From the IMG/VR virus record IMGVR_UViG_3300030329_006583, positions 203,119 to 267,118 of that record: a DNA stretch of 64,000 nt; one strand, given 5' to 3'. The position numbers were made by a program, and so were the translations under genes. Position 1 is the stretch's first letter; each line of letters begins with the position of its first letter. Source of the DNA: a virus. Below are positions 18,125 through 64,000 of the stretch, piece by piece. The notes under the pieces were generated by a model. The model was not told the origin of the DNA. It saw only the letters and a list, made by a program, of their open reading frames with translations, and ran no database searches.

Positions 18125-18174
18125 CTTTATCTCTCCATGGAAGCATTATCAGGTTATAATTAGTACCCTACTTA

Positions 18175-18339: not shown

Positions 18340-18355
18340 TTTTAATCGTATTTTT

Positions 18356-44288: not shown

Positions 44289-44897
44289 CTATATCCCGCC
44301 TTCAGCTGCGATTGGGCTAGCCCCTACACCCATCGGATCCACTAAATCCTGAGGGATGTCTAGACTAATATCGTACCTGAGATCTAAAATATCCAACATC
44401 GCGGCTGCCTGCTCGGGCCCGTATTTGTCGGTGATATAATCTTCTGCTTTTTTTACAATTAACGCCTTCATATCCAGAAGTGAATCATAATTCTTGGCTA
44501 ACCTTGCTACGTCACCTGCAAATGTTTCCATATCAATTACCGGAATTTCCTCCTGTTCGTAAAGCACACGAACTATTGAGTATTTGTTGGCCTCATTTTG
44601 TGCCTGACCTTTGGCGGCATTGATAGCATCTGTCTCAAAATCCACAAAAAGGGCATTAAGTTCATCATCAACTGATTTACCCAAAGGTTCCACTTCATCC
44701 ACCCCTGGTTCTATTTGGGCCTCTTCCGCCTCAGCTTCAACTTCCGCTTCTGGGCCTTCTTCATCACCAGGTGTTTCTTCCGCATCTTCCTCAGTGGCTT
44801 CTTCAGTATCAGCCATATCGGCTTCTTCTTCTTGTTCCACAAGGAGCCTGAACTCTTCGTTTATTAGCTTTTTTAAATACTTTTTTGTCAATTTCAT
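44289..44897 (-). CDS. Tagged acidic protein
   Basis: 202 residues. Extended tag MKLTKKYLKKLINEEF followed by RLLVEQEEEAD, giving two possible [L/I]-x-E sites. A long Glu/Ala/Asp linker (~25-75) leads to a helical domain (KSVDDELNALFVDFETDAIN, FAGDVARLAKNYDSLLDM). Overlaps the SOD-like gene upstream as ATGA. Likely an internal virion protein. Confidence 0.7.
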   Translation of the reverse strand: MKLTKKYLKKLINEEFRLLVEQEEEADMADTEEATEEDAEETPGDEEGPEAEVEAEAEEAQIEPGVDEVEPLGKSVDDELNALFVDFETDAINAAKGQAQNEANKYSIVRVLYEQEEIPVIDMETFAGDVARLAKNYDSLLDMKALIVKKAEDYITDKYGPEQAAAMLDILDLRYDISLDIPQDLVDPMGVGASPIAAEGGI

Positions 44898-45592
44898 TTG
44901 ATTGCCTTCCCGATTTTTTCAGCCTTTTTAACCCTTTTCTCAATTACATCCCAATCTAATTCTTTCATCATAGCAAAAACATACGTCTTTCTGTCATTCA
45001 AATAATCACGATAATAAGAATTTTCCGAACAATCTAAAACAACAATTGGAAACGATGCAAAAGGAACATTAATATTATGCAGATCTACACACACATTAAT
45101 ATAACGTTGAAGAAAGGTATTATAGACAGTGACTGCCCACCCATTTCTAGATGACATAGCGCATGCAATAAAATCCTTTTGCCACGCATCAAAAGAACCA
45201 AAATCCCTCTCCAACCTTATAAAAGTAAGAGAATCCATTACTAATTGACTTTTGAGATCACTAATATTTTCAAAAAACAAAGCATTCAAAAATGAAGCAT
45301 TAAGATTGTAGGTTTCATCAATCTTCAAAGAACGAAATTCTGAATTATTGGCATTTGCATCTTCACGATTAACAACATCCAATTCAATACTAATACGATT
45401 AAGGGTATCTATGTATCCTTCAAGCAATTCAAAATGAGCACGTTTATTTTTTTCACTTAAAAATTCTGTAGCTAAATTATATCGTTTGGCTTGGGTAACA
45501 TATGCCTCCTTAATGGTGGCGTGTCCTTCTTTTTCTTCCAACCCCAACGTTTCCCTGATCGTTCTTTTTATTTCATCATCAGATATGCTCAT
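44894..45592 (-). CDS. Superoxide-dismutase-fold protein lacking metal ligands
   Basis: 232 residues from MSISDDEIKRTIRETLGLEE, a tag-like start. The body follows Fe/Mn-SOD order: RAHFELLEGYIDTLN, NASFLNALFFENI, DFGSFDAWQKDF, NGWAVTVYNTF, VVLDCSENSYYRDYLNDRKTY and LDWDVIEKRV. At the metal positions the first His block is changed, NHxFYW has become NASFLN, and DxWEHAYY has become DCSENSYY, so of the four ligands only the Asp is kept. It should be catalytically dead and may be structural. Confidence 0.65.
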   Translation of the reverse strand: MSISDDEIKRTIRETLGLEEKEGHATIKEAYVTQAKRYNLATEFLSEKNKRAHFELLEGYIDTLNRISIELDVVNREDANANNSEFRSLKIDETYNLNASFLNALFFENISDLKSQLVMDSLTFIRLERDFGSFDAWQKDFIACAMSSRNGWAVTVYNTFLQRYINVCVDLHNINVPFASFPIVVLDCSENSYYRDYLNDRKTYVFAMMKELDWDVIEKRVKKAEKIGKAIK

Positions 45593-45593
45593 T

Positions 45594-46019
45594 TTATTTA
45601 ACCTCATATTCTTTTTCAAATTCTTCTTGATCCACCACAAACACCTCTTCATCAGGATCATCGGGTATTAATTCTGTTTGTATTTTATCTAAATTAATTA
45701 ATTCATCTTCACCTAATATTGCCGCAATTTTTTTATCACTGATCAAAGTATCCTCTTGATCGGGTGGGGGATCAAAACGGGGTTCATCAGGCAATCTTAA
45801 AACAATGTCAATTTTACCGGTCTCCGGATCTTCCAAAACATCATCCACAGTGTATTCATATTGAGAATCTTTATGCCTCACCTTTAAATCACGCGTTATA
45901 AGAATATTACCGTCGTCATCTATCACGTCAGATTCCCAAAGGGCTTCGTTTAAACGATCCTCGTAATAATTACGCAATAAATCAATTATAACATTTTCTG
46001 ATAAAATTTTATTTTTCAT
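45594..46019 (-). CDS. Acidic protein with tag-like N-terminus
   Basis: 141 residues. N-terminal helix VIIDLLRNYYEDRLNEALWE is a tag variant ending in LWE. The body is acidic with TVDDVLEDPETGKIDIVLRL and many Asp/Pro. It starts inside the last codons of the upstream gene (GGATGAAAAATAA). Function unknown. Confidence 0.62.
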   Translation of the reverse strand: MKNKILSENVIIDLLRNYYEDRLNEALWESDVIDDDGNILITRDLKVRHKDSQYEYTVDDVLEDPETGKIDIVLRLPDEPRFDPPPDQEDTLISDKKIAAILGEDELINLDKIQTELIPDDPDEEVFVVDQEEFEKEYEVK

Positions 46020-47162: not shown

Positions 47163-47687
47163 CTAAAGAGGAAGGTGATCGGTCTTTATGCCGGAATTAA
47201 TTAACAACTCCACCCCCGCTGTATCGCGATATTCATTTGCATAATACACCTCATTAATGCCGGCATTTATCATTGCTTTGGCACACATACGACACGGAGA
47301 CAAAGTAACATACATTTTTTTCTTTTTGTGCGTATTATAATCCATTTTTAGTAATGCATTAATTTCGGCATGAATCATTCCGGAATGACCGGGCTCAGTT
47401 GACTCTACCTCGTTTGGCCCGCCGGCATAATTCCCATTATACCCCACCGCTAAAACCTGAGTATTGTCACCGGAAACTACAATGGCACCCACTTGATTTC
47501 TAGGATCGTAAGAACGTCGACTGATGGAATTTGCAAATTCCATCCAAATTTCATCCCACGGAGGCCGGTGTTTAGTGCGCCGAGATGGCATTACTTTTTC
47601 TACCCCTTCCTTTAATTGCGCAGTTACCTCTGCCCTTAATTCCTCCGGAACGTATTGTTCTATTATTTCAAATATCTTTCCCAACAT
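47163..47687 (-). CDS. dCMP deaminase
   Basis: 174 residues. Zinc motifs are HAEINALL and SPCRMCAKAM, with VGAIVV and GYNGNYAGGPNEVE typical of the deoxycytidylate deaminase family. A 40-residue N-terminal helical extension precedes the domain. It makes dUMP, the substrate of the ThyX at 58976. It overlaps the thymidine kinase gene by 20 bases. Confidence 0.92.
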   Translation of the reverse strand: MLGKIFEIIEQYVPEELRAEVTAQLKEGVEKVMPSRRTKHRPPWDEIWMEFANSISRRSYDPRNQVGAIVVSGDNTQVLAVGYNGNYAGGPNEVESTEPGHSGMIHAEINALLKMDYNTHKKKKMYVTLSPCRMCAKAMINAGINEVYYANEYRDTAGVELLINSGIKTDHLPL

Positions 47688-48243
47688 TATCTTCCTTTTG
47701 ATTTATAAAGGGGTAATGTTCCCAACACCTAGGTTCATAATATTCAGCACCACCCACTGTAATCTCATCCAATCCCTTCACTTTGTGGTGAGTATAATAA
47801 GCATCGCGCCCAGTGCGAGGGCACACAGCGGGACAAATTTCAATTTTGGTAGCCCAAGGCATCATATCCCTCACCTCCTCAAAAACTTTCCCAGCAGCTG
47901 ATAATTGTAAAGATGACACAACAACTGTCACCCCGGTTTGAAAAATCTTCAAAAGTGCGATAGCTGAGCCATCAATCATGAACGCTTCATCCACCCCTAC
48001 CACATCAGGTTTGTATTCGGTGACCGCATCCCAGATTTCCTTCCCGTTAGAAACCAACGTGGCAGGAAACGTAGTACCTGAATGTGTGCTTATCTCTTTT
48101 TCAGTGTATCTATCGTCCATCCTTGGTTTAAATGCCATTACGCGTAAATTTTGATATGTAAATCTCTCAAGTGACGCCAACATTCGGGTGGTTTTAGAAC
48201 CAAACATAGGCCCTGTAAAAATAATAAAACTAGGATCTCTCAA
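47668..48243 (-). CDS. tdk: Thymidine kinase (TK1 type)
   Basis: 191 residues from a TTG 6-7 bases after GGAGGAG. P-loop TGPMFGSKTTRML, kinase-2 DVVGVDEAFMI and a lasso/zinc region (ICPAVCPRTGRDAYY) mark type II thymidine kinase. It phosphorylates salvaged thymidine. It overlaps the dCMP deaminase gene, forming a pyrimidine pair. Confidence 0.9.
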   Translation of the reverse strand: MRDPSFIIFTGPMFGSKTTRMLASLERFTYQNLRVMAFKPRMDDRYTEKEISTHSGTTFPATLVSNGKEIWDAVTEYKPDVVGVDEAFMIDGSAIALLKIFQTGVTVVVSSLQLSAAGKVFEEVRDMMPWATKIEICPAVCPRTGRDAYYTHHKVKGLDEITVGGAEYYEPRCWEHYPFINQKEDNVGKDI

Positions 48244-49254
48244 TTAATTCTCCTCCAATCCCCACCACGCAAATGTTTTTTCCAAGCCGGCGGCCAAATT
48301 TGTCTGGGGTGTGTATCCCAATTTTTCTTGTGCCAACGATGTATCAGCCAGGGTCTTCATTACATCACCTGGGCGCCAAGGGGCATGTTTAATTTTAATA
48401 TCATTGAACTTATTTTTAAAAATCTCCAGAATTTCATTATTTGAACATGATTCACCATACCCTACATTAAACACATTACCGCATACGTCATCTTTTGTAG
48501 TCGCGGCCAAAATATTTGCATTGACCACATCATCAACAAAAACCATATCCCTCACTTGAGTACCGTCACCATCACTACGAAGGGGGAGATTATTTTTTGT
48601 AGCATGACACCACGCGCCAATTGCAGTAGAATAAGGGCTGTCGCCGTATTGGTGTGGCCCATAAACATTGAAATACCTCAAAGACACAATTTTCATCCCA
48701 TAAAGTTTATGAAACAACTCAGCAAAATATTCTCCGCACAACTTTTGTAACGCATAAGGTGATTGAGGATCTTTCTCCATTGTTTCCGGCGTAGGAAAAA
48801 TCTGGGCATCTCCATATACCGATGATGAACTTGAAAATATTACACGCCGAGTATTGCCAACTGACACCTGAAATAAGGCTATGGTTTTAAATAAATTTGT
48901 TTCTGTGGTGGCCACTGGATCATCCACGGAATGTTCCACCCGGGGAAGGGCCGCCATATGAAAAACATAATCGTATATTCCTGATTTTACCCTATTTAAC
49001 ACATTATCATGCGCAAAATCGCCGGTTATAACCAAAACTTGTGTGGGGTTGATTTCGTGTTTATCTTCATGCTCTTCCTCATAAAGATGTAATAAATCTG
49101 CATGGACTGTGCGAGGTTTAACGCTGTCCAAAAAATCTAAATATCCGTTGGACATATCATCAACTACGTCCACAGACCAACCTTTTTTATGCAGCCCAAG
49201 AACTAAGTTGCTGCCAATAAAACCACACCCACCTGTCACCAAACATTTAACCAT
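48244..49254 (-). CDS. NAD-dependent sugar-nucleotide epimerase
   Basis: 336 residues from the ATG after AGGGG. Extended SDR: TGGCGFIGSN nucleotide motif, FHMAALPRV, SSSSSVYGD and the catalytic SPYALQK (YxxxK), then RYFNVYGPHQ. UDP-hexose or UDP-HexNAc 4-epimerase is the likely class. In this operon it could prepare the donor sugar for the glycosyltransferase at 50258. Confidence 0.88.
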   Translation of the reverse strand: MVKCLVTGGCGFIGSNLVLGLHKKGWSVDVVDDMSNGYLDFLDSVKPRTVHADLLHLYEEEHEDKHEINPTQVLVITGDFAHDNVLNRVKSGIYDYVFHMAALPRVEHSVDDPVATTETNLFKTIALFQVSVGNTRRVIFSSSSSVYGDAQIFPTPETMEKDPQSPYALQKLCGEYFAELFHKLYGMKIVSLRYFNVYGPHQYGDSPYSTAIGAWCHATKNNLPLRSDGDGTQVRDMVFVDDVVNANILAATTKDDVCGNVFNVGYGESCSNNEILEIFKNKFNDIKIKHAPWRPGDVMKTLADTSLAQEKLGYTPQTNLAAGLEKTFAWWGLEEN

Positions 49255-49264
49255 AATTTTCCCC

Positions 49265-50257
49265 TTATTCCAAAATATGATATCCCACAAAATTGGTGGA
49301 ATTTTGAACCGCAATCGAATCTTTTTCCAAGCCTAATTTTTTAAGCCGATGAGATACCAAAATTTTCCCCCAATCTTTCCAATATGAAACATCATCAATC
49401 TCAAGGCCATCAATTTCCTCGATTAACGCATTAATTTCTTCAACGTCATTCAATAAACGTAGATGTTTTTCAAATAACATCATTTCCTTAATCGGCATAT
49501 CCTTTGATAATGCCGGCATTTCACCGCGAGCCAATTGAAGCATTTTTGATTGACCTACTTCCTCGGAACGTAAAATATTCTCAACCATTTCAAAATGCCT
49601 TTCATAAATGTGAAGTGAATTACTGATATGTGTATATGTCCCTAACTCCACACCTAGTTCCAAAGCCAACATTTCTTGAAACATGGTAAATGCAGGAATA
49701 TCATAGGCAATCCCAAGTATCAAATCTGATGATCTCATATTAGTAATCATATGCAATTTTTCATCCCTGATCAAAAATTGCAAGGTGAGAGTACAAGGCA
49801 CATCCAGCTTTGCACTAACAGAATCCCATGGGCTCCGAATGTGAATGACGGCCCTCCTAGAATCTGGATCTTTCTTCAATTCATCAATAATGTATTCCCA
49901 CTGAATCAAGGAAAAATTAGCAATCCTGCCATGTGGTTTAAATATCCTGGCACCATATGCCGAATTAGCTGTCTTACCATCATCACTAATATTATTCCAA
50001 AATGACGAATAATTTGCGATCCACTCTGTTGAGTCATCCCCGGAAAGATACCACAATAACTCCGCAATCATATAATGCATTGAAAATTTACGTGGCCGAA
50101 CATAAGGAATTCTATTCCTTGGGTTTTTCAGCACAAACTTCACTGCCAATTTCTCTTTCACTTTTTGGCCACGGGGACTGGAAATATAATCAGGGGAATT
50201 GTAGACGTCATTTAACAAACTTAAATAACAATCGGTAAAATTATCAAAATTACGCAT
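49265..50257 (-). CDS. ThyA-family enzyme with Asp at base-selecting site, candidate dCMP hydroxymethylase
   Basis: 330 residues after AAGGAGG. The thymidylate synthase core is clear: RR at 134-135, VPCTLTLQF (catalytic C155), MRSSDLILGIAYDIPAF and NSLHIY (H216, Y218). The residue that in E. coli ThyA is Asn177 (GLPFNIASY) is Asp186 here. This exchange is known in T4 dCMP hydroxymethylase and, as an engineered mutation, switches thymidylate synthase from dUMP to dCMP. With ThyX also encoded, the best prediction is hydroxymethylation (or methylation) of dCMP. A C-terminal 60-residue extension is unassigned. Confidence 0.82.
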   Translation of the reverse strand: MRNFDNFTDCYLSLLNDVYNSPDYISSPRGQKVKEKLAVKFVLKNPRNRIPYVRPRKFSMHYMIAELLWYLSGDDSTEWIANYSSFWNNISDDGKTANSAYGARIFKPHGRIANFSLIQWEYIIDELKKDPDSRRAVIHIRSPWDSVSAKLDVPCTLTLQFLIRDEKLHMITNMRSSDLILGIAYDIPAFTMFQEMLALELGVELGTYTHISNSLHIYERHFEMVENILRSEEVGQSKMLQLARGEMPALSKDMPIKEMMLFEKHLRLLNDVEEINALIEEIDGLEIDDVSYWKDWGKILVSHRLKKLGLEKDSIAVQNSTNFVGYHILE

Positions 50258-51580
50258 TTAATTGTCCTCCTTCACTGATTTTTCAACAGATAAAAGTCTC
50301 ATTTTACGCAAAGCCGCAGTGGTTGTACGCTCATAACTACACCTTTTTTGAACGGCATTTCGCAAACCCCATTCATCATTAAATGTCACGGTACCAATTT
50401 CATCCTCTGAAGTATAACAGTTTTTTTGAGCATTGTCAATCAAATTATCCAAAACATTCACCACATCACTCAAATCCGGATTGGCAACATATGGATAGTT
50501 CACTTCATCTGCAATTAATTTATATTCATAATTGTCTACCCAAAGTGGTAAACACCCCAATTCAATGCATTCACGAGCCGCAGTGCCACCATAGCTATCG
50601 ACGTTATAAAGACCCACGGCAATATGTGATTTGCGTGCTACGTATCGATATTCATTTCTGGTAAATGTATCATCAATCAAATGAAGATAAGGTTGGCAAT
50701 ATTGTTGTAATTCTTTATTTGAAAATTTCTGTGAAGGATTGCCTGCAATTACCACAAAATCCTGCCTTTTTTCATAAAGTTGATTACACAATTCAAATAA
50801 AAATTTACCACAATTTGTATAATCAGAGCTCCTACCCATTCCACCCACACGATTAGGTACAAAAATCACAGTTTTATCAGCAGGTATTTCAAACCTAAGT
50901 TCATTGACATCAACATTTTTTGTGATTTCTTCCTTAGAATAACCATCATCCCATGGGGAAGATTTCTCTGCGATTTGTGTAACTAATTTATCCTTATGTT
51001 CTACAGCCAATGAATCCAAGAAAATATTCAATGCAGATTCACATTGCCAAAAATTATAGTCTGCTTTGTCAGCAGCCTCAATTTGCCCGCGCCATAATGA
51101 ACCCTCCAACGGAAATTTAGGTGCCGCAGGATTATCAATAAAATGAGAATGCACTGCAAAAAAGGGTTGATATCCCCCTTCCAGAAAAAACAAGGTTTTA
51201 AAATTCCTCAGCAACATGGGATCATTAATATACACATGAGAATAACGTAGTGAATTTTGGGTTTTATGCCCTTTTAAATTAAGCAAGATTGCCAGCGCTT
51301 CAAAATCAAAATCATAACGTGTGGCAAGAGCATTAGGAATGATTTTGTGCCTGAGATAATTAACCCTTGGGTTTATATTAATATCCGGATATAACTGTTC
51401 AGGCTGGGTTATGACCTGTTCACGCAACGGGCACATAATATCAATATGCAAATCTGGTACCAGATCTAACATTACCCTCACCCTTCCCATCACCATCTGC
51501 CAGCCGGAATCTGCCTCTAGAATAAATTTTCCATTAGAATCATAATTTGACAATTGGGTTTGAATCAATAGTTTTTTCAT
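50258..51580 (-). CDS. GT-B glycosyltransferase
   Basis: 440 residues after AAAGG. The second half has the GT-B pattern: TVIFVPNRVGGMGRSSDY, VVIAGNPSQKFS, and NVDSYGGTAARECIELGCLPL, whose Glu/Gly segment binds the donor in GT4-like enzymes. The first half is not family-typical. It lies between the ThyA-like gene and the dNMP kinase, which suggests that it glycosylates modified DNA bases; cell-envelope targets remain possible. Confidence 0.75.
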   Translation of the reverse strand: MKKLLIQTQLSNYDSNGKFILEADSGWQMVMGRVRVMLDLVPDLHIDIMCPLREQVITQPEQLYPDININPRVNYLRHKIIPNALATRYDFDFEALAILLNLKGHKTQNSLRYSHVYINDPMLLRNFKTLFFLEGGYQPFFAVHSHFIDNPAAPKFPLEGSLWRGQIEAADKADYNFWQCESALNIFLDSLAVEHKDKLVTQIAEKSSPWDDGYSKEEITKNVDVNELRFEIPADKTVIFVPNRVGGMGRSSDYTNCGKFLFELCNQLYEKRQDFVVIAGNPSQKFSNKELQQYCQPYLHLIDDTFTRNEYRYVARKSHIAVGLYNVDSYGGTAARECIELGCLPLWVDNYEYKLIADEVNYPYVANPDLSDVVNVLDNLIDNAQKNCYTSEDEIGTVTFNDEWGLRNAVQKRCSYERTTTAALRKMRLLSVEKSVKEDN

Positions 51581-52107
51581 TTTTTACCTTTTAAAAATGC
51601 TGTAATTTCATCAATCTCTTGTTCTAAATCTTCACTATCAACATTCAAATAATAAATGTCGCATTGTGTCCATTTACCAAATTCAAAATAAAGCTTTGAT
51701 AATTTATTTAAATTTTCCTCTGTTAATAAATCGGGGCGATCTTCATCATATAAACCAGAATAATCAGATCTGAAACATACAATGATTTTGGTACCCAATG
51801 ATGCAAAATGTCGATCAGAATTTCTCACCGCTGATAAATCTGTTTCTCGATGAAAAAATTGAGAATATACCCACTCACAAGGATAGGCACGATCCAATAT
51901 CAAAGAATAGCCGGTTTGGCTTAGTAAATCCAACATACGTGGATCTGCATATCTCATTTCATTAATAAAGTTTTTTTCATTTCTAAATTTTGATTTTTCA
52001 TCACAAGCCTTAAAGGTTGGAATACCTAATCGGGAGGATAATTCATGCGCAATTTCTGTTTTTCCTGTTTTATCCGGACCACAAAAAATTATAAGTTGCT
52101 GTTCCAT
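51577..52107 (-). CDS. Deoxynucleoside monophosphate kinase-like
   Basis: 176 residues. P-loop FCGPDKTGKTEIA, DRAYPCEWVYSQFF as the DR-type substrate block of thymidylate kinases, and FRSDYSGLYDEDRPDLL as the lid. It overlaps the glycosyltransferase gene as ATGA. It could be the analogue of T4 gp1, which phosphorylates hm-dCMP, dTMP and dGMP; specificity is not readable. Confidence 0.78.
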   Translation of the reverse strand: MEQQLIIFCGPDKTGKTEIAHELSSRLGIPTFKACDEKSKFRNEKNFINEMRYADPRMLDLLSQTGYSLILDRAYPCEWVYSQFFHRETDLSAVRNSDRHFASLGTKIIVCFRSDYSGLYDEDRPDLLTEENLNKLSKLYFEFGKWTQCDIYYLNVDSEDLEQEIDEITAFLKGKK

Positions 52108-52155
52108 TTTAAAATCACCAATTAAAGATTAATAACCAGGTTTAAATTATTTAAA

Positions 52156-55100
52156 TTAAGTTAACAGTTGTTTAAATTTACCAAAATTAGTAGACATTCC
52201 AAATTCATTTTGATTGATCTCAGCAACACAAATTGAATAAGCCGGAACATCTGTTTTGCCATCCCAACCCCACATAAACATTTTTGAAACTTTCCCTGAT
52301 GATCCTGTAATCTCAAGCAAAAGATAGGGTCGTTTGTTTTTTGTCAATTTAGAATGTGCAGCCTTTACAACAAACCAATATAAATCTTTGCCGTGATATT
52401 CATCAATTGCTGCAATTTCTTTTTCAGCAAATTTTTGTTTAATTTGTTCCGGAATTAAAAGACTGGCGTCAAAACTACCAAGCAAAGAAGTACTCATCTC
52501 AGCCCTTTCCTTGGCACCCCATTCATCACACCTTTCTTCTTCCAGTATGGCCTGACGATAATTGTTAATCCCACGTTCAGGATCACTTTTTGTTCGCTTT
52601 CTTAAATCATTATAGTGATCAATCAAAACATGATGCATATGCTTATAACTGGAAAATTCTTTGTTATCTCCTACCACATCCATGGATTCAAAAGCGCCAA
52701 TTTTAATTAAATTTTCCAATGCGCGTTTATTAAATTTTGAATGCCTCCAAATTCCTTCTTCATCCCACAACATTTCCCTTATGTTTCGATAAGGTCTTTT
52801 TTCAACAATTTCATCAATTGCAGAAGATCCCACGCCTTTACAAGAAAGAAATGAAGGCATAAACTTCTTGCCGTCAAGGATAGTCCAACTATCTGTGGCA
52901 TAATTAACGTCAATAGGGATAATATCATATCCCAACGCCCTAACCTCTGAAAATGCTTTGGCACGCTTATCAGCATTTGATGACATGGATTCCAGGTATG
53001 CACAAAGCCATTCCTCTTCATAATACGTCATCAGCCATGCACAAAAATATGAATCCATTGCATAAGAAACAGCGTGACTCATATTAAAACCATACCCGGC
53101 AAAATAAAGAATCTTTTCGTAAAGATCACTAGCAACTGAATTTGGTACCCCGTTTTTAACGGCGCCTTCAACAAAACTGCTTTTTAATTCATTAGCCTTT
53201 TTAATTGCCGCTGCACCACCGGAGATGCTGCGTTTCATGATAGCCTTTCTGACTTTATCGCATTCATCCTTGGGAAAACCTGCGACTACATTAGCTAATT
53301 TCATTACCTGTTCTTGAAAAATAATCATCCCATACGTAGGCTCTAAAACCTCCTTAATCAACGGATGTTGGTAATCAATATTCTCAGGTTCCAGCTTGTT
53401 TTTAATGTATAATTTATGAACATTGGCCGCCAGAGGCCCTGGGCGATAAATAGAGGTAAGAGTAGCAATATCAATTAAATTACGAGGCTTTGCCTTCATA
53501 AATAGTCGCTGGGCACCCCTATTTGTTAATTGAAAGATTCCGCCCCACCTACCGGAATGATATACATACTCATACACCTGTGGGTCATCAAAATCTATCA
53601 CACTTGGTGCCATGTTTTCTTCGTACCATTTTCTTACATCTGCAAATGCCGGTTTATCTACACCGCAGTGCCTCTGCAAAATCAATTCAATGGCACGTTC
53701 TACAATGCGAAGTGTTTCCAAACCCAGGAGATCAAATTTAATCCAACCAAATTCTTCCAGGTGTTTAAAATTTGTACCTTCCACCCACGGCGTTTGGGTT
53801 TCACCTTTGGCCAAAATAAGAGGCATTCTTTGGGGAACATTCTCTGAAACAATAACCCCGCCTGCATGACGACCTAGCGCCTTGTTTTGCTTAAACAATA
53901 CTCCCATGGGATTAGCCACTTCCGGGTATTTATCAATGAATTTTTTAAATGATTCACTGTGTTTAATTGCATCTTCGTATTTTAACACAAAAAGATTCTT
54001 GTCTTCACCGTGTTTGGTAACAGCTTTACGAACATCCTGTTCCACCGTCCGGGTGGCTGCATTGGCTTCATCAAAAGGAATCCCATAAAATCTCGATATA
54101 TCTTTCACCAACGTCTTTAATTTAAATGTGTTATAATTGGAAATTGGAACAATGTTCTCACCCCCAAAATTATCTTTAAGCAAATCAATAAGCAAATCCC
54201 GATTGGAAATATCTGTGTCAATATCAGGATATTCTAAACGATACTTGCTCAAAAAACGTTCAAAAAGAAGGTTGTATTTAATAGGATCGACGTCGGTGAT
54301 ATAAAGAACATAATTAACCAGTGAACCCGCACCGGAACCGCGGCCTGGACCGATTAACATCCGATCTCGAGCAACATCCAAAATTGCTTTCATCGTTAAA
54401 AAGTAGGCACTAAATTTGCGTTCTTTAATAACCGCCAGTTCCATTTTTAACCGATCGATATATTCTGGCTCATCAGCTAACCCACGTTTTATGAGTCCCT
54501 CTTTACACGCCTCCAATAATGCTTTATCGGCAGTCAAACCCTCGGGAATAACATAAGAAGGCAATTTAGGACTTTGATCGGGGTGAATGTCCCCAATTTC
54601 TTCATACACAATATCATGAGTACGTTCAATTGCCCCATGAATTATGTTATCATCATAAAAATCATACTGTTTAGTTGTGTCTTGATAGGATTCCCAAACC
54701 TGATTGGCGTTTTTGGGATAAAGTTCACACTTTAAATCCTCTTTGGACTGAGGGAGTTTGGAAGGATCAAAATCACGATAATTAAGCCAGCCCAATTTTT
54801 TATAAAGTTCCCGCTCCTTCCAATGTTCAGGACGGGCATAATGAGAATCTGTGGTTACAACGAGCTGTTCCTGCAAACCGGCATTGTCTGCAAATTTCAT
54901 AATGGCCCTATTGACCAGGTGCTGTGCCGGTAATTGGTTGAATTGAAGCTCTAGTTTAACATTCCCACGACCCACTGAATGTTCCAGTTGTTCATAAGCA
55001 TTCCCTACCCCCAATAATACCTTTTCAAACAAATTCTTATCATCCAACAAACTGGCATGTAAATTATCAAATTCTACTTCCTGTAGGTGTTTAAAAACCT

Positions 55101-55758
55101 CATAACATAAGGGACCGCCCAAACATGCGGTAGAGATCATCAGGTGACCTCCCTTCGCCGCTTCTTTTAGCATCTTATAATCAACTCGAGGAAACCGATA
55201 AAACCCCTCCATGTACCCACGAGACACCAGGTGAAACAAGCGTTGAAGACCTTCCGACGTTTTTGGAAGCACCACCAGGTGGTGGCGGCGCTTAATTGGA
55301 TCATAAAACTTACCTGATTTAGTTTCCTCCTCGTTTTCAATTGTTAGGCTAGCTGCATCTGTAGAAATATCAAGGGTTTCATCATCACCATCTAATTTAG
55401 CAGTGAGGGGGGTAACTAATTTTTCCCGTTGGGCACGCAATACAGCTAGTGCATCAGTGTCACCTTTCTTTGCCGCTTTTTGAATTTCGTAATCAAGCTT
55501 CCATGCCTCAAGATCCGGATGAACATACATTTCACAACCAGGTACAAACTTAAAATTAGCACCGGCTTTATTCAATTTTTCCGCATGCAAATAAGCATGT
55601 GCAAAACTATTCATATGGCCATGGTTCGTCAAACACCACGCATCCATTCCATTTCCCCTCACAAAATCAATGTGTTCCTGAGGGTAATCCAACCCATCAA
55701 AAGTGGAAAATCCATCATGGGCATGCAGGCTTACAAAACGATTCGGTTCTCTACTCAT
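52156..55758 (-). CDS. dnaE: DNA polymerase III alpha subunit (C-family replicase)
   Basis: 1200 residues after AAGAGG. PHP domain at the N-terminus (FVSLHAHDGFSTFDG, CLTNHGHMNSFA), palm with GPGRGSGAGSLVNYV and YPDIDTDIS (catalytic Asp pair), TLTSIYRPGPL, fingers, HhH region and a C-terminal OB-like part (GSSGKVSKMFMWGW). The PHP domain has an insertion of about 60 residues rich in charged amino acids. It is presumably the phage replicase. Its promoter overlaps a strong hairpin at 55789-55818. Confidence 0.96.
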   Translation of the reverse strand: MSREPNRFVSLHAHDGFSTFDGLDYPQEHIDFVRGNGMDAWCLTNHGHMNSFAHAYLHAEKLNKAGANFKFVPGCEMYVHPDLEAWKLDYEIQKAAKKGDTDALAVLRAQREKLVTPLTAKLDGDDETLDISTDAASLTIENEEETKSGKFYDPIKRRHHLVVLPKTSEGLQRLFHLVSRGYMEGFYRFPRVDYKMLKEAAKGGHLMISTACLGGPLCYEVFKHLQEVEFDNLHASLLDDKNLFEKVLLGVGNAYEQLEHSVGRGNVKLELQFNQLPAQHLVNRAIMKFADNAGLQEQLVVTTDSHYARPEHWKERELYKKLGWLNYRDFDPSKLPQSKEDLKCELYPKNANQVWESYQDTTKQYDFYDDNIIHGAIERTHDIVYEEIGDIHPDQSPKLPSYVIPEGLTADKALLEACKEGLIKRGLADEPEYIDRLKMELAVIKERKFSAYFLTMKAILDVARDRMLIGPGRGSGAGSLVNYVLYITDVDPIKYNLLFERFLSKYRLEYPDIDTDISNRDLLIDLLKDNFGGENIVPISNYNTFKLKTLVKDISRFYGIPFDEANAATRTVEQDVRKAVTKHGEDKNLFVLKYEDAIKHSESFKKFIDKYPEVANPMGVLFKQNKALGRHAGGVIVSENVPQRMPLILAKGETQTPWVEGTNFKHLEEFGWIKFDLLGLETLRIVERAIELILQRHCGVDKPAFADVRKWYEENMAPSVIDFDDPQVYEYVYHSGRWGGIFQLTNRGAQRLFMKAKPRNLIDIATLTSIYRPGPLAANVHKLYIKNKLEPENIDYQHPLIKEVLEPTYGMIIFQEQVMKLANVVAGFPKDECDKVRKAIMKRSISGGAAAIKKANELKSSFVEGAVKNGVPNSVASDLYEKILYFAGYGFNMSHAVSYAMDSYFCAWLMTYYEEEWLCAYLESMSSNADKRAKAFSEVRALGYDIIPIDVNYATDSWTILDGKKFMPSFLSCKGVGSSAIDEIVEKRPYRNIREMLWDEEGIWRHSKFNKRALENLIKIGAFESMDVVGDNKEFSSYKHMHHVLIDHYNDLRKRTKSDPERGINNYRQAILEEERCDEWGAKERAEMSTSLLGSFDASLLIPEQIKQKFAEKEIAAIDEYHGKDLYWFVVKAAHSKLTKNKRPYLLLEITGSSGKVSKMFMWGWDGKTDVPAYSICVAEINQNEFGMSTNFGKFKQLLT

Positions 55759-55780
55759 TCAAACTTACCTCTTCCGGAAA

Positions 55781-55818
55781 ATAAAAAAGCACTCAATTGT
55801 ATTGTAACAATTGAGTGC
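55781..55818 (-). terminator. Perfect 12-bp hairpin with T-run before dnaE
   Basis: GCACTCAATTGT/ACAATTGAGTGC (12 bp, 6-base loop) followed on the minus strand by TTTTTTATTTT: the form of an intrinsic terminator for the gene ending at 55848. It also overlaps the -10 of a good promoter, so it may instead act as an operator or attenuator for dnaE. Confidence 0.7.
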
Positions 55819-55829
55819 CAAATTTACAC
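55801..55829 (-). promoter_or_regulatory. Promoter GTGTAA-17-TACAAT overlapping the hairpin
   Basis: GTGTAA (55824-55829) and TACAAT (55801-55806) on the minus strand are 17 bases apart. The flank CGTGTAAATTT-GGCA is the same as at the UV-damage endonuclease promoter. The -10 lies in the hairpin loop, and transcription would start inside the 3' arm of the hairpin, about 40 bases before dnaE. Confidence 0.55.
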
Positions 55830-55847
55830 GAATATTGATAAATTAAT

Positions 55848-56243
55848 CTATTTTTTTGTAGAAGTCCCAACAATATATTGCGCAATCTCTTCTTTGATTA
55901 TTTGACTCATGCGTTCTGGACTAATGCCTTCGCCAATTTTCACGCCGGTTCCTTCGGAAGATGCTTTATCAAGCGCCTTAGTGCCCAATGTTTCAGCATA
56001 ATTAAGCATTTTTTGAAAAGCAGGCACATCGTGTTGTGCCATGGCGATCAGTACCTGAAGGATTATGGCCATTTCATCATTAAATTTTACAGGAATATTG
56101 GCCACTAAGTCAGCGGCATCTGTTTTAAGGGCCTTTGTAAATTCTGCGTTTGTCAAACGAGCCTGATCATCTTGTTCCAATAAAAAACGTAATGCCAACT
56201 CTTCTTTTATGATTTTTCGCAATAATCTATTGTTTAGGTGCAT
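55848..56243 (-). CDS. Protein tagged at both ends
   Basis: 131 residues after CAGGAG. N-terminal tag MHLNNRLLRKIIKEELAL with RFLLEQDD; C-terminal tag SPERMSQIIKEEIAQYIVG. Between them is a helical domain (FNDEMAIILQVLIAMAQHDV). It ends upstream of the hairpin that precedes dnaE. Function unknown. Confidence 0.7.
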   Translation of the reverse strand: MHLNNRLLRKIIKEELALRFLLEQDDQARLTNAEFTKALKTDAADLVANIPVKFNDEMAIILQVLIAMAQHDVPAFQKMLNYAETLGTKALDKASSEGTGVKIGEGISPERMSQIIKEEIAQYIVGTSTKK

Positions 56244-56286
56244 CTATAATCTCCTGCTTGGTAATTTTAATTATCCAATTCATTAA

Positions 56287-56673
56287 TTAATAACCATTAT
56301 CAAGCCGAGAATGAATAATATTATCCTTGGTTTTATAGGCATTAAAAAGCTCCGAGGCATCCACACCCACCAATACTAACACAGATAGAAAATAATTGAA
56401 AGCATCCACCATTTCCTCAACAAACTCGTCCCTATTGAATTCACCGTTTTGTGTATCACGGTGGGGTTTCCAGTTCTTCAGGTGTTGCAATGCCTCAAAC
56501 ATCTCCTCCACCCCTCTTAATGCCATATCTCGCACATGTTGCTGTGACTTTTTATCACCAACATTAATAGGCCATTCGGGATACTCACCAGGCTTGATTT
56601 GTTGTAATCTCTTCATAAATGCCTGGCGTAGTTCAAACATTTCATGAAGTGAATCAGTTTGGTTCATCTTCAC
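56287..56673 (-). CDS. MazG-like all-alpha NTP pyrophosphatase (dUTPase/dCTPase type)
   Basis: 128 residues. Metal-binding helices LRGVEEMFEALQHL and DEFVEEMVDAFNYFLSVLV carry the ExxE and ExxD motifs of the dimeric dUTPase/MazG superfamily. T4 gp56, which destroys dCTP so that only hydroxymethyl-dCTP is used, belongs to this superfamily. Substrate not decidable, but the context favours dUTP or dCTP. Confidence 0.75.
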   Translation of the reverse strand: MKMNQTDSLHEMFELRQAFMKRLQQIKPGEYPEWPINVGDKKSQQHVRDMALRGVEEMFEALQHLKNWKPHRDTQNGEFNRDEFVEEMVDAFNYFLSVLVLVGVDASELFNAYKTKDNIIHSRLDNGY

Positions 56674-56878
56674 CTATACCCTCCAACATTGCCTCAATAT
56701 TGTTTTCAAATTGAGATTTATATTCCTCGGCCAGATAAATGGTGTCATCAGCCACCGTTAACCTCGCCTGCCTAAAATGATCTACCACATCTGTTCCAGA
56801 AATGATTGCCATTTGCACCAATTTCGCAATTTGACCAATCACCTCATCGGAAAGTTTTAAATTTGTATTATCACTCAT
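56654..56878 (-). CDS. Small acidic hypothetical protein
   Basis: 74 residues from the ATG after AGGAG. Helical (DEVIGQIAKLVQMAIISGTD) with an acidic end (EAMLEGIGEDEPN). It overlaps the MazG-like gene by 20 bases and may be its partner. Not recognised. Confidence 0.6.
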   Translation of the reverse strand: MSDNTNLKLSDEVIGQIAKLVQMAIISGTDVVDHFRQARLTVADDTIYLAEEYKSQFENNIEAMLEGIGEDEPN

Positions 56879-56886
56879 TTTTTCTC

Positions 56887-57690
56887 CTATATTTGAATGG
56901 CAGGACACCAGTGGGTAGTCCTACCGTCTGCAGTTTGCTCCCTAATTACTTCATTTCCATCAGGATCTGTTTTTTGATTATATACCAAAAATTTCCTAGC
57001 GTATTCACCTTCTGATCCATCAAAATTTTTATAAGTTTTAATGGTAGCCCCACCACTCTCAAAACTTTCTCGCATCACTAATTGAATAGAACGATTAAGT
57101 GAAATTAATTCCTGGTCTGACATATCAATTACTCGACGATAGGGGCTGATTTTTGACAACCAAAGAGAATCTGCCTTTATGTAATTTCCCACCCCTGCAA
57201 CCACAGATTGATCCATCAATGCCTTTGTAATTTCCCACTTATTCTTTTTCCGCAATCTACCAATGAACATTTCATTATCTACATCAGTGGCTAACATATC
57301 TGGGCCTAGTGAGGTTAATTTTTCAATCAAGTTAAATTTCCCTCTGACAAATTTAATTGTGCCAAAATTACGTTGATCATTAAAATATACCATACCATCA
57401 TTTAAATGAAAACGCAAACGAGGGTGTTTAGTGACGACTTCGCTCCATCCCCCAGTCATCCCAAGCGTACACCATATAGAATATTCGTCATCCAATAACC
57501 AATACATAAATTTTCCATGGCATCCCGCACCGACGACCCTGATTGGAAATCTAGGGGCAATTATTTCAATGCCACTTGGTGGTTTTTTTTGATAACGCCC
57601 ATCTAAAATTTCAACAGCTTTTAGCGTACGCCCAGATACACGTTCCGCCAGTTGTTGTGCAATCCTTCTAACCTCTGGACCTTCAGGCAC
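56887..57690 (-). CDS. Fpg/Nei-family DNA glycosylase with degenerate zinc finger
   Basis: 267 residues from a GTG that overlaps the previous stop. N-terminus MPEGPEVRRIA (catalytic P2, E3), beta sandwich, and helix-two-turn-helix VVAGVGNYIKADSLWLSKISP. The C-terminal finger keeps GRTTHWCPA but lacks the first CxxC pair, as in zincless-finger NEIL1-like enzymes. It excises oxidised bases and cuts by beta/delta elimination. It partners the MBD4-like gene. Confidence 0.9.
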   Translation of the reverse strand: MPEGPEVRRIAQQLAERVSGRTLKAVEILDGRYQKKPPSGIEIIAPRFPIRVVGAGCHGKFMYWLLDDEYSIWCTLGMTGGWSEVVTKHPRLRFHLNDGMVYFNDQRNFGTIKFVRGKFNLIEKLTSLGPDMLATDVDNEMFIGRLRKKNKWEITKALMDQSVVAGVGNYIKADSLWLSKISPYRRVIDMSDQELISLNRSIQLVMRESFESGGATIKTYKNFDGSEGEYARKFLVYNQKTDPDGNEVIREQTADGRTTHWCPAIQI

Positions 57691-58108
57691 GACCAGCCTC
57701 CATCAACCAATTATGGTAATCATTTAAAGCATGATCAGTAGGTTGTACATGTTCCCAATCACCTTTGCAAAATATTCGCCATGCATCATCGGCATACTTG
57801 CCACACCCATAAAGATCGGAGGCTGTCTCCCAATCGCCTGTTAAAAAACCTTTTGAGAATTTTTTCAAAGTATTAATCCGACGATTGTACATACCTAAAG
57901 GCTTAAGAATTTCTCGCAATCCCAATTCATCAGCATCTAAAATTGCTTGTGCATTTGGGTATTTTTTAAAAAACTCATCAATCATAGGATCTACTTGTTT
58001 ACGTGAAGTTTGATTCAACAATAAACAACATACCAGGATCTTCCACTGATCAGGCCAGTAATCCTCTTGTAATAATGCATGCGGTGATCTCGGTGGTTGC
58101 CAGTGCAT
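57683..58108 (-). CDS. MBD4-like HhH-GPD DNA glycosylase
   Basis: 141 residues from the ATG after AAGGAGG. The whole length aligns by eye with the glycosylase domain of MBD4: LLNQTSRKQVDPMIDEFF, ILKPLGMYNRRINTLKKFS, the hairpin LYGCGKYADDAWRIFC and the catalytic-Asp block VQPTDHALNDYHNWL (D125). MBD4 removes T, U or 5-hydroxymethyl-U opposite G. In a phage that may hold hydroxymethylcytosine, the deamination product would be its substrate. Confidence 0.85.
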   Translation of the reverse strand: MHWQPPRSPHALLQEDYWPDQWKILVCCLLLNQTSRKQVDPMIDEFFKKYPNAQAILDADELGLREILKPLGMYNRRINTLKKFSKGFLTGDWETASDLYGCGKYADDAWRIFCKGDWEHVQPTDHALNDYHNWLMEAGRA

Positions 58109-58154
58109 CACTACCTCCTTCACAATAATAAAAAGAATAAAAATGGTGTATAAA

Positions 58155-58979
58155 TTATCGGTCCTGAATTCCTACAATTTTAACCGGGGTGGCAATATAT
58201 TCATTCCACAAGCTGGTCCTTACGCTTCCATCGCAACTATCCAGTTCATAACATATATTGTTGAGATCTTTACCGGGATATTCTAGCCGATACATATTGC
58301 ATGCACGCCGACCATTATCTAGTGCCATTGATTTAATGTCACTGCGAAAACCTGCACGGACATTACCGATAAATGTCACTAACACCGTGGATTCAGGACG
58401 AAAAAATTCTCGTTCCATAACTGTAAAAGCAGAAATATCAAATTCAGGACCTGATTCCAGGGATTTCATTAATCTATCCAATCCTTCAGGGGAAGTATAG
58501 TGGGATAGGAACTTAAGGTTATACGTGGAACCGTAAAGCTGTGTTGTATATACATCATCAAGCATCACATAAGGTTCCATATCTCCGCGTGAATAAAAAA
58601 ATGCAAATCTTAATTCTCTAATATCTGGGAAATAGTGGCCGTATTCATTTTCAAATGCCCACAACCTATGATTCACAAAATCTTCAATGAAATCCAAAAC
58701 ATTCTTTTTTGTTAATAATTCCCACCTATCGACTTCATCGCTAAGTTGGTATCCAAAAAACTGAGATATAAGACCTAGAAAATTCTCAAAATCTTCTGCA
58801 CTGCAGGAAACAGGATGTTTACAACTTAATTTTCCACCCCGGGAATCAAAGCCTAATCCTTGAAGTTCCAGGAGATACAGCGCCATTTCTTCCCATTCAC
58901 CCAATGTATGAAAAGACGAAGCTGGTTTCATGTATCCCCTAACTTTTGTTGATTCTTTCATAGTACCAATAACTATCAT
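58155..58979 (-). CDS. Hypothetical protein
   Basis: 274 residues, starting in an ATGA overlap with thyX (a second ATG stands 18 bases downstream). Notable blocks are FLSHYTSPEGLDRLMKSLE, FFRPESTVLVTFIGNV, FRSDIKSMALDNGRRACNM and YELDSCDG. They look conserved and enzyme-like, but I do not know the family. Located between ThyX and the DNA glycosylases. Confidence 0.65.
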   Translation of the reverse strand: MIVIGTMKESTKVRGYMKPASSFHTLGEWEEMALYLLELQGLGFDSRGGKLSCKHPVSCSAEDFENFLGLISQFFGYQLSDEVDRWELLTKKNVLDFIEDFVNHRLWAFENEYGHYFPDIRELRFAFFYSRGDMEPYVMLDDVYTTQLYGSTYNLKFLSHYTSPEGLDRLMKSLESGPEFDISAFTVMEREFFRPESTVLVTFIGNVRAGFRSDIKSMALDNGRRACNMYRLEYPGKDLNNICYELDSCDGSVRTSLWNEYIATPVKIVGIQDR

Positions 58980-59710
58980 TCATCAGTTAAAGATGACCTA
59001 AGTTCCCTATATGCACCTACCGTAATGGGGAATAAATTTTCCGCAATACCCAACACGGCAATTGCCACCTGTTGAATTTCCCACTGCGCGCCTTCATGAA
59101 TGCGAAGATCAACGAATTTAAGAATATTGTTCAGGTTTGCCGTCCCGTAGTATTCGGTATACATATTTTGTGGAAGGACACCGCGGGCTTGTTCACGACA
59201 AACACCGGACTCCAAAAGTCGATCCAGGAGTTTAAGTGAGTTAACATGGTGTTTTCGAACTAATTCACTAGCCTCCGTTTCAACCAAACTCGCCATCAAC
59301 GGATGATCGATCTTGATGCTGGGATTAATCAATTTGTTAACAGATGCCTGCCTGTTGGATTCGCTCTGTTTCCTAAAAGCTTTAGGCTCATAGAATTCTA
59401 TGTTAAAATCTGTGTACCTTCTGCTAATTTCATTATAGGACCATGTCCTATGGCGCATATGCTGTTTGGAAATAAACAGAGGCACCTTAAAACGAAAAGT
59501 AATAGAACAATGTTCTAAAGTGCTGGTATGTTTGTGTTTAATAAGGTAATTGATCAATCTTTTGTCTTTTTCGTCAATATCTTCTTTATGTTTACCAAAA
59601 GAAACACGAGCGCTATTGACCACGGAAAGATCGCTACCAAGGTGATCAACCAATTCCACAAATCCGATTCCATCATCGTATAATTCTGTCCGTTCTTTGG
59701 GAAGTGTCAT
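58976..59710 (-). CDS. thyX: Flavin-dependent thymidylate synthase ThyX
   Basis: 244 residues after AGGATG. The ThyX signature RHRTWSYNEIS (RHR, seven residues, Ser) is present, followed by RRYTDF; STLEHCSITFRFKVP and VLPQNMYTEYYGTANLNNIL are further family blocks. It makes dTMP from dUMP with FAD and methylene-tetrahydrofolate. Its presence makes the ThyA homologue at 49265 unnecessary for dTMP. Confidence 0.95.
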   Translation of the reverse strand: MTLPKERTELYDDGIGFVELVDHLGSDLSVVNSARVSFGKHKEDIDEKDKRLINYLIKHKHTSTLEHCSITFRFKVPLFISKQHMRHRTWSYNEISRRYTDFNIEFYEPKAFRKQSESNRQASVNKLINPSIKIDHPLMASLVETEASELVRKHHVNSLKLLDRLLESGVCREQARGVLPQNMYTEYYGTANLNNILKFVDLRIHEGAQWEIQQVAIAVLGIAENLFPITVGAYRELRSSLTDE

Positions 59711-61231: not shown

Positions 61232-62476
61232 TTAAAATTGTTCCGCTTCCGTAGAATCTTCCAATGCCAATGTAGAACTCTCACCGGAAGATATCACCTG
61301 AGAAACTGCATCAAAATAACCGGTTCCAACCTCTCGTTGATGGCGATGTGCCGTGTACCCCAATTCCTCCGCAGCGAATTCAGCGTCCTGCAAATCAGCA
61401 TACGCAGACATATCCCTATCATTATAATCGAGTGCAAGCTGAAACATGTGATGATTAAGATTATGAAAACCGGCCAGCGTAATAAATTGAAATTTATAAC
61501 CCATTTTTCCCAATTCACTTTGAAACTTAGCGATTGTTTTGTTATCTAGATTTTTCCTCCAGTTGAAACTCGGGGAACAGTTATAGGCCAATAATTTACC
61601 TGGGAATTTTTTATGAATTGCATCAGCAAACCTCTGGGCTTCTTCCAGATCGGGGGTACTAGTTTCACACCATAAAAGATCTGCATAAGGTGCATATTGC
61701 AGCCCCCTAGAAATTGCCATGTCAATCCCACCGGTAATTCTATGAAAACCCTCAGGTGTTCGTTTAGAATCTGTGATAAATTCCTTATCTGTTTCATCAA
61801 TATCTGATGTTAATAATTTGGCACTATTGGCATCGGTTCTTGCAATTATAACGGTGTCTGTACCCATCACATCACTAGCTAGGCGTGCCGCAATAAGCTT
61901 TTTTACAAACTCAGATGCCGGTACCAAAACCTTTCCCCCTAAATGCCCGCATTTTTTGGCGGAAGAAAGTTGATCTTCAAAGTGTACACCGGCGGCACCA
62001 GCGCGGATCATTGATTTCATTAATTCAAACACATTTAATGAACCCCCAAATCCTGCCTCTGCATCTGCAACAATTGGGGCATACCAATCACGTGATGCCG
62101 TCCCTTTGTTTTCATTCCACTCAATCTGATCAGCCCGACGAAGAGAATTATTAATTTTTTGCACCAACATTGGAACGCTGTGTACTGCATACAGGCTTTG
62201 ATCGGGATACATTTCATGAGAATCATTTGCATCGGCAGCCACCTGCCAACCCGAACAATAGATGGCAGGGGTACCGGCTTTTACCATTTGCATCGCCTGA
62301 TTACCGGTGACTGCACCCATCGCATGCACATAATCCATTTCATTCATTAGCCGTCGCAACGTCGCCGCCGTTCTTTTAGCCAATGTGTGTTCCTCTGCAA
62401 GTGAACCCCTCAGGAGTTCAACATCACGTTCAGTGTAAGGTCTTTTAATATCATCAGTCAATTTACAGTTCCTCAT
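61232..62476 (-). CDS. aceA: Isocitrate lyase
   Basis: 414 residues, about 20 shorter than the E. coli enzyme. Active-site KKCGHLGGK (C176), [34 protein letters not shown] and YNCSPSFNW are intact. The ATG at 62476 lies inside the malate synthase end; a TTG five codons on, with AGGA upstream, is an alternative. It splits isocitrate to succinate and glyoxylate. It is co-translated with malate synthase. Confidence 0.96.
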
Positions 62477-64000
62477 AAAGTCTTGTTGTCAAGAAATCTT
62501 CCATTTTATCCTGAAAACAAAAGGACGATAGCAATTCCACTTCCTCTGGTTCCATATCGCTTAATAGTTCATCAATTATATCTTGAACTAGTTTTTTAGA
62601 AACAACTGTCCCATTAGATAATGTAACGTTGTATGTTAACCATTGCCAAATTTGTGCCCGTGATATCTCAGCCGTAGCTGCATCTTCCATTAGGTTGTTA
62701 ATGGGAACACAACCATTGCCTTCCAGCCAGGCGTTAAGATATTCAAACATTACTGCCAAATTTTTCTTCAATCCGCTCAAAGTGCATGTACCCTTTGGCA
62801 GGCACAACAAATCACGACCACCAATTGATGCATTGGTAATATGAGGGATATCAATTTGATTAGCATCCGGCATGTGTTCATCAAATATCTCTTTCGCAAG
62901 AGGTATCAACCCGGGATGGGCTACCCACGTACCATCATGACCACTCAAAACCTCGCGCAATTTATCGTTTTTAACCTTTTCCATGGCTTTGTGATTTGCC
63001 TGAGGTGCATTTTTAATGGGAATCTGTGCCGCCATCCCTCCCATTGCATGCACTCGACGACGATGGCATGTTTGAATCAACAATTGCGAATAACAACTCA
63101 TAAAATGTTGATTCATTCCCACCTGATCCCGATCAGGCATTATCATCTTAGGATTATTCCGAAATGTTTTAATAAAACTAAAAATATAATCCCATCTCCC
63201 ACAGTTCAGCCCAGCAGTATGGTTTCTGAGCTCATATATAATTTCATTCATTTGAAATACAGCGGGAAGTGTTTCAATTAAACATGTTACCTTTGTGGTT
63301 CCCACCTCGATACCTACGTATTCTTCAGAATATGTAATAATCTCGTTCCACAAACGAGCCTCTAAATAATGTTCCATTTTCGGAAGATAAAAATAAGGTG
63401 CGCTTGATCTATTTGCAAGTTCTTGTGCGTTATGAAAGAAATAAAGACCAAAATCAAACAACATGGCTGGAATGGGTTTTTTATTATATGTTACATTATT
63501 TTCTTTTAGGTGAAAACCCCGCGGGCGAACAAATAATATAGCTGGGTTCTCCCCTAGCTTGTAAAATTTACCTGTTTTGGGATTGGTATATGTAATTGTA
63601 CGCCTAACTGCATCATACAAATTCCTTTGACCATTCACACAATTCTTCCACGTTGGAGAATTAGAATCTTCAAAATCAGCCATAAATACATTGGCCCCAG
63701 AATTAAGGGCATTAATAATCATTTTTCTATCAACAGGTCCTGTGATTTCAACCCTGCGATCCTGAAGCTCTTGAGGAATAGGATCTGCAACCCAATCCCC
63801 TTCACGAACATCCAACGTAGTAGAAACAAAATCAGGCATATCACCTAAATCATATTTTCTTTGTGCCGTTTCTCTTTTCTTCAGTGCTGCCTCTATGCGA
63901 GGACCAAATTTCTCCACTAAGGATGATAAAAATTCCAATGCATCATATGAGAATATTAACGTATCACTTTTTACATCTTTTACTTCTAGCAATTTTATAC
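62463..64000 (-). CDS. aceB: Malate synthase A; 5' end at or beyond the right edge
   Basis: 509 residues from a TTG at 63992; the frame remains open to the window edge, so a few N-terminal residues may be missing. Signatures [67 protein letters not shown] and [20 protein letters not shown] are complete. It joins glyoxylate and acetyl-CoA to malate. With isocitrate lyase it forms the glyoxylate bypass. Confidence 0.96.

Follow-up and report, generated by a model that had tools for sequence, protein, structure and literature searches.

A putative cytosine-hypermodification operon with a predicted GT-B glycosyltransferase and a sugar-nucleotide epimerase in an uncultured large phage

Phages that decorate cytosine in their DNA provide the closest described counterparts to a set of minus-strand genes in the window analyzed here (the whole 64,000-nucleotide stretch, which is the final 64 kb of the 267,118-base virus record IMGVR_UViG_3300030329_006583), a set that appears to encode a route to glycosylated 5-hydroxymethylcytosine (5hmC). 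The glucosyl-hydroxymethylcytosine system of T4 (Tevenvirinae) comprises gp42, the alpha- and beta-glycosyltransferases (GTs), gp1, gp56, cd, and tk. The window resembles it in a predicted dCMP hydroxymethylase whose base-recognition residue is Asp, a dCMP deaminase, a thymidine kinase, a MazG-like protein locally similar to the gp56 dCTPase, and a GT near the polymerase; it differs in a hydroxymethylase that is long and MilA-like rather than short like gp42 (the gp42 type does occur in relatives of the window), a DnaE replicase, a GT unrelated in sequence, an epimerase inside the operon, and ThyX. The locus works like the T4 system yet is not of the T4 family, as it has neither an ortholog of gp42 nor a detectable homolog of either T4 GT.

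Three other systems share parts of this arrangement. The arabinosyl-hydroxycytosine cluster of Mosigvirus (RB69/NP) likewise groups a DNA polymerase, a ThyA-superfamily enzyme, a small P-loop kinase, and sugar genes, but its ThyA-like enzyme is without the hydroxymethylase residues, and its sugar genes include isomerases and an NTP-transferase-like gene, where the window has a single C4 epimerase. Bacillus phage G has a DnaE-like polymerase, a dCMP deaminase, two genes annotated as alpha glucosyl transferase, and a ThyA homolog with Asp177 (gp319, 33% identical over 95%); unlike the window GT, however, gp313 of phage G belongs with T4 alpha-GT, and an epimerase is not annotated within the 19 kb shown. 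The 5-hydroxymethylcytosine carbamoyltransferase contigs of a metavirome study (PMC8670742), also from uncultured phages, combine an Asp177 ThyA homolog, dCMP deaminase, and PRA-PH (MazG-like) domains, although the decoration there is carbamoyl and not a sugar.

We propose, with a probability of roughly 0.77, that the window carries a cytosine-hypermodification operon by which 5-hydroxymethyl-dCMP is made, incorporated, and then glycosylated by a GT-B enzyme. A phage genome with glycosylated hydroxymethylcytosine is likely because residue tests, exchange of the hydroxymethylase among relatives, exchange of the GT, and fold prediction agree, in keeping with the T4-like production of hydroxymethyl-dCMP at the nucleotide level that an earlier note on this DNA had put forward. 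Taken separately, the presence of hydroxymethylcytosine in the genome is very probable, and its glycosylation by the window GT is probable. The operon itself is well supported: replicase, P-loop kinase, GT, ThyA homolog, epimerase, thymidine kinase, and dCMP deaminase form a single packed minus-strand unit (55758–47163), and from the kinase through the dCMP deaminase, neighboring genes overlap or sit within ∼10 bases of one another. All genes named in the earlier note are intact open reading frames in the order it gave, on the minus strand, and each has database support except the GT. That note had extended the continuous series to the MazG-like gene and to position 57690; continuity holds for 55758–47163, but not beyond. 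A strong intrinsic terminator (55788–55819, minus strand; a 13-pair stem, then TTTTTATTTT) lies between gp55848 and the replicase and sets the 5′ limit of the unit, and because it stands between the MazG-like gene and the replicase, the former belongs to another, preceding transcription unit. Positions 56887–57690, likewise beyond the operon, encode a Nei/Fpg-type DNA glycosylase.

The ThyA-superfamily enzyme (49265–50257, minus strand; PF00303, E 6e-36) has the CMP hydroxymethylase MilA as its top PDB match (E 3e-47). We aligned it with E. coli ThyA, T4 gp42, SPO1 gp29, phage G gp319, RB69 ORF048, and the relatives identified in this analysis. At E. coli positions 177 and 147 it carries Asp and Thr, respectively, matching T4 gp42, whereas these positions are Asn and His in E. 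coli thymidylate synthase and Asn and Asn in the SPO1 dUMP hydroxymethylase. Asp177 shifts the substrate from dUMP to dCMP, and positions 177 and 147 were the top two markers of cytosine-modified phage contigs in the metavirome study (PMC8670742); the T4 structure accounts for the choice of dCMP via Asp179 (PMC6841964). The enzyme also keeps Ser167 and Arg126 (E. coli numbering), consistent with a preference for the deoxynucleotide. The CMP preference of MilA is due to Ala176 and Lys133 (PMC5175136), and dCMP is favored as the substrate here because those positions are Ser and Arg in the window enzyme. A hydroxymethyl-dUMP route was rejected on Asp177, and the thymidylate synthase pair Asn177/His147 is absent from the enzyme, which scores under all NCBIfam thymidylate synthase cut-offs. 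Database labels were not used for the substrate call (an Agathobaculum phage "deoxyuridylate hydroxymethyltransferase" likewise has Asp177). Although only 27% identical to T4 gp42 and outside the gp42 clade, the enzyme has every published residue marker tested, which is strong residue evidence that it is a dCMP hydroxymethylase.

Relatives of the window GT occur in 15 other IMG/VR contigs of up to 369 kb (47–62% GT identity), two of which (L012 and L013) gave identical results across the compared stretch. The order kinase, GT, epimerase/ThyA, (thymidine kinase), dCMP deaminase recurs in these contigs far more than expected by chance, and replicase relatives (50–74% identity) stand first in the same cassette. 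An Asp177 hydroxymethylase and an epimerase each lie less than 6 kb from the GT in all 15; the kinase is nearby at 14/14 loci with enough upstream DNA, the dCMP deaminase at 14/15, and the thymidine kinase at 13/15. The hydroxymethylase is of the window's long type in five contigs, of the T4 gp42 clade in nine (the L008 enzyme is ∼50% identical to T4 gp42), and divergent in one (L054, left out of the tree), with Asp177 in every case. Asp177 is likewise present in all aligned ThyA homologs of polymerase relatives without the window GT. In the tree, the window hydroxymethylase pairs with the L033 enzyme as its sister (98/95); in L033, as in L036, a different GT (PF13524) adjoins the same kinase. 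In L045, a PF11440 DNA alpha-glucosyltransferase, 41% identical to phage G gp313, stands between the hydroxymethylase and the epimerase. Independent swapping of hydroxymethylase and GT would be expected if together they serve to make and decorate hydroxymethylcytosine.

Further genes accompany some of these cassettes. In L045, a C5-cytosine DNA methylase gene (18032–19189) is flanked immediately by the genes for the DNA alpha-glucosyltransferase and the epimerase. A second SDR gene (L003: 11330–12319 and L033: 15231–16223; 68% identical) occurs near the hydroxymethylase in phages with different GTs, and none was found beside the window's cassette.

Searches with the GT (50258–51580, minus strand) against Pfam, PHROGs, PDB sequences, and 50,697 phage records (INPHARED/GenBank phages) found no match. 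Examination of the alignment of 14 family members revealed many invariant residues and a mean identity of 61%. On the strength of an AlphaFold model (mean pLDDT 87.5, pTM 0.86), we are confident in the prediction of a GT-B fold: Foldseek against PDB returned retaining GT-B enzymes (best E 9e-12, TM ∼0.6), in keeping with a two-domain fold, the best solved matches being GlgM, sucrose-phosphate synthase, OtsA, BshA, and HepE. The N-terminal half, for which the earlier note had suggested a fold search, is an ordinary GT-B N-terminal domain. The viral structural neighbors are phage glycosyltransferases, including the cyanophage S-TIM5 DNA alpha-GT and the SP-15 GT, and the closest structural relative is the GT of Arthrobacter phage Kitkat. 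That the enzyme is unlike the GTs of T4, as had been supposed, is borne out: hhalign detected no similarity to T4 alpha- or beta-GT, so T4 homology was rejected, and PF11440 (the T4 DNA alpha-glucosyltransferase family) has no match in the GT or elsewhere in the same genome. Invariant Glu337, Arg244, Lys285, and His144/146 may include donor-phosphate basic residues and part of the EX7E motif of GT4-like enzymes. A seed scan of the genomes of 84,980 bacterial and archaeal species found no relative of the GT, and with no cellular relative in that scan, a host glycan role is not seen for this enzyme.

The extended-SDR sugar-nucleotide C4 epimerase (GalE/WbpP-like; 48244–49254, minus strand; PF01370/PF16363, the latter at E 4e-47) is encoded in a reading frame that opens at 49314; its likeliest start is the ATG at 49254, just past the ThyA stop, with a Shine-Dalgarno-like AAGGGG ahead of it. 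The YxxxK and GGxGFIG (GxxGxxG) motifs of an extended SDR epimerase are intact, and the nearest PDB relatives are UDP-hexose 4-epimerases, so that the enzyme could, to judge from its sequence, make UDP-galactose. The sugar could not be named from the epimerase, as the best NCBIfam family, galE (TIGR01179), scored 168 bits, short of its cut-off of 262. When viral contigs were scanned for the epimerase by itself, only one relative, a weak one, emerged; epimerase linkage was therefore counted at the GT and polymerase loci. A distinct glycan cluster is present elsewhere in this genome (∼97016–114174 of the record, ∼140 kb from the operon) with a DegT aminotransferase, two formyltransferases, a UDP-galactopyranose mutase, three SDR genes, and a GT2-like gene. 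This mutase could use UDP-galactose, but it does not explain the epimerase generally, because it was found in only 1/21 other records in all (1/11 of those bearing the GT), many of them partial. A literature search on UDP-galactose together with phage 5hmC returned the RB69 paper alone.

The earlier note took the epimerase to mean that the added sugar is not plain glucose and concluded that the DNA is of a new glycosylated-cytosine type. Glycosylated hydroxymethylcytosine is likely, and the new DNA type is a reasonable hypothesis, but a non-glucose sugar is no more than possible, since the epimerase also stands beside the PF11440 alpha-glucosyltransferase (L045) and the PF13524 GT (L033), and the separate glycan cluster needs UDP-galactose. 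The odds that the sugar differs from glucose are about even at best. The fuller proposal that uncultured large phages carry a base not yet reported, 5hmC bearing a non-glucose sugar (e.g., galactose or N-acetylgalactosamine) added by an undescribed DNA GT family with a donor from an epimerase of the same operon, is tentative, and we would wager against it. A variant that overlaps with the hypermodification operon proposed here, and that falls a little short of even odds, holds that the GT adds plain glucose drawn from the UDP-glucose of the host, with the epimerase recycling UDP-galactose or serving the glycan cluster; the pairing of this epimerase with other GTs fits that variant, as do the glucose-donor users among the nearest solved GT folds, but UDP-glucose is already host-made, T4 manages without an epimerase, and yet the cassette epimerase is kept at all 15 other GT loci. 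A further alternative retains 5hmC DNA but assigns the GT and epimerase, as mere neighbors, to virion or host-surface glycans. GT-B enzymes with GT4-like folds often act on glycans, and the cluster with its mutase lies in the same genome; it is, however, distant and has its own SDRs, the mutase is rare among GT-bearing records, the kinase, hydroxymethylase, and epimerase accompany the GT across the 15 other contigs, and the position of the GT in relatives is taken by other GTs, once by a DNA alpha-glucosyltransferase. We consider this assignment improbable.

Two readings that dispense with hydroxymethylcytosine altogether are more improbable still. The ThyA homolog might make 5-hydroxy-dCMP, with arabinose attached directly at C5 as in RB69-type phages, and Mosigvirus clusters do combine polymerase, ThyA homolog, kinase, and sugar genes. 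However, Glu58, Trp80, Asp169, and Tyr209 are all retained in the window enzyme, whereas RB69 ORF048, only 27% identical to it and of the kind reported as a 5-hydroxy-dCMP synthase (PMC13390438), has Phe, Ala, Asn, and Phe at these positions, a pattern absent from the window enzyme; this route was rejected on those catalytic residues. In addition, the T4-clade enzymes found in place of the long type reach ∼50% identity to gp42, and no RB69-like isomerase or NTP-transferase gene was found in the window's cassette. The other reading, that the operon serves ordinary nucleotide biosynthesis with a thymidylate synthase and that the DNA has canonical bases, draws on the fact that dCMP deaminase, thymidine kinase, kinase, and MazG genes are common in phages with canonical DNA. 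It would be surprising here, as Asp177 and Thr147 contradict a dUMP enzyme, ThyX is encoded in the same genome, and the conserved neighboring GT and epimerase would be left unexplained.

Several observations weigh against the glycosylated-hydroxymethylcytosine operon itself. A ThyA that methylates instead of hydroxymethylating is compatible with the sequence, although the adjoining GT favors the hydroxymethyl outcome. GT-B folds serve glycans too, the GT lacks detectable similarity to either T4 enzyme, and its family does not conserve the leading acidic residue of the EX7E motif usual in GT4 enzymes; the family is also acidic (pI 5.2–6.3), with T4 alpha-GT comparable at 6.1. The family match of the kinase is weak, and the MazG-like gene is found only in the nearest relatives and not beside the more distant cassettes.

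In the proposed pathway, the ThyA homolog would convert dCMP to 5-hydroxymethyl-dCMP, the step with strong residue evidence, and the adjacent P-loop kinase (51577–52107, minus strand; phrog_761 thymidylate kinase, E 2.4e-8), a putative (hydroxymethyl-)dCMP kinase, would phosphorylate the product. In a two-sequence comparison, this kinase has local similarity (E 3e-6) to the RB69 kinase that adjoins the RB69 5-hydroxy-dCMP synthase. The MazG-like NTP pyrophosphohydrolase (56287–56673, minus strand; phrog_12184, E 1.1e-17; PF08761 at E 5e-4, under the cut-off), a candidate dCTPase/dUTPase, would lower the dCTP and dUTP pool; a two-sequence comparison with the C-terminus of T4 gp56 gave 40% identity over 42 aa (E 6e-7). 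The dCMP deaminase (47163–47687, minus strand; PF00383, E 3.3e-21; phrog_174, E 2.8e-45; with HAE and PCxxC zinc motifs), thymidine kinase (47668–48243, minus strand; PF00265, E 2.8e-32), and ThyX (58976–59710, minus strand; PF02511, E 5e-50) would, by their families, rebalance the thymidine supply. ThyX provides dTMP independently, and a second thymidylate synthase is therefore unnecessary. The replicase, a DnaE-type DNA polymerase III alpha (52156–55758, minus strand; TIGR00594, E 1.3e-172) and thus bacterial-type as the earlier note had it, is expected to insert hydroxymethyl-dCTP into DNA. After replication, the GT-B enzyme, to judge from its fold, the linkage of its gene, and the swapping of enzymes, would move a sugar from a nucleotide-sugar donor to the hydroxymethyl group. 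The weakest step is the supply or topping up of the donor by the epimerase, most simply UDP-galactose or UDP-glucose by C4 epimerization. By analogy with T4, the product may protect the phage DNA against restriction and CRISPR enzymes.

If this pathway is correct, the window GT represents a further family of hydroxymethylcytosine GTs, distinct in sequence from both T4 enzymes, and hydroxymethylase and GT have been exchanged independently inside one operon. The enzyme set would offer a possibly new sugar specificity for marking 5hmC, and it would become testable whether non-glucose DNA sugars serve uncultured large phages against restriction and CRISPR.

Several features adjoin the pathway genes. 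The replicase gene of some relatives is split by inserts of 1–3 kb (L003: 4254–9429, L006: 10–5971, L009: 967–3809, L054: 1014–7281), several containing other open reading frames, which are likely inteins or introns. A protein with a Fe/Mn superoxide dismutase C-terminal domain (PF02777; window 44894–45661, minus strand) is encoded downstream of the dCMP deaminase in 14/15 cassette loci; in the window protein, DCSENSY stands in place of the DCWEHSY of the relative L054, and a metal ligand may have been lost. The Nei/Fpg-type glycosylase gene (56887–57690) overlaps a HhH-GPD glycosylase gene (57683–58123), both on the minus strand; both are kept in relatives, adjoining MazG/ThyX, and possibly provide base-excision repair fitted to modified DNA.

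An N-terminal motif, L(K/R)(K/R)(L/I)I(K/N)EE, is common to otherwise different minus-strand proteins (window 56243 and 44897, and L025: 18955) and is perhaps a targeting or cleaved leader peptide. Elsewhere in the window, a phage-encoded GroEL chaperonin lies at 27696–29306 (minus strand; phrog_5725, E 2e-153). A predicted isocitrate lyase (61232–62476, minus strand; PF00463, E 2e-97), with the KKCGH active-site motif intact, is overlapped by a predicted malate synthase at the record end (62463–63992, minus strand; PF01274, E 2e-107), and the two putative enzymes provide this phage with the full glyoxylate bypass. The relative whose record contains L033 likewise encodes an isocitrate lyase, as does Phage C48C1 (56% identical).

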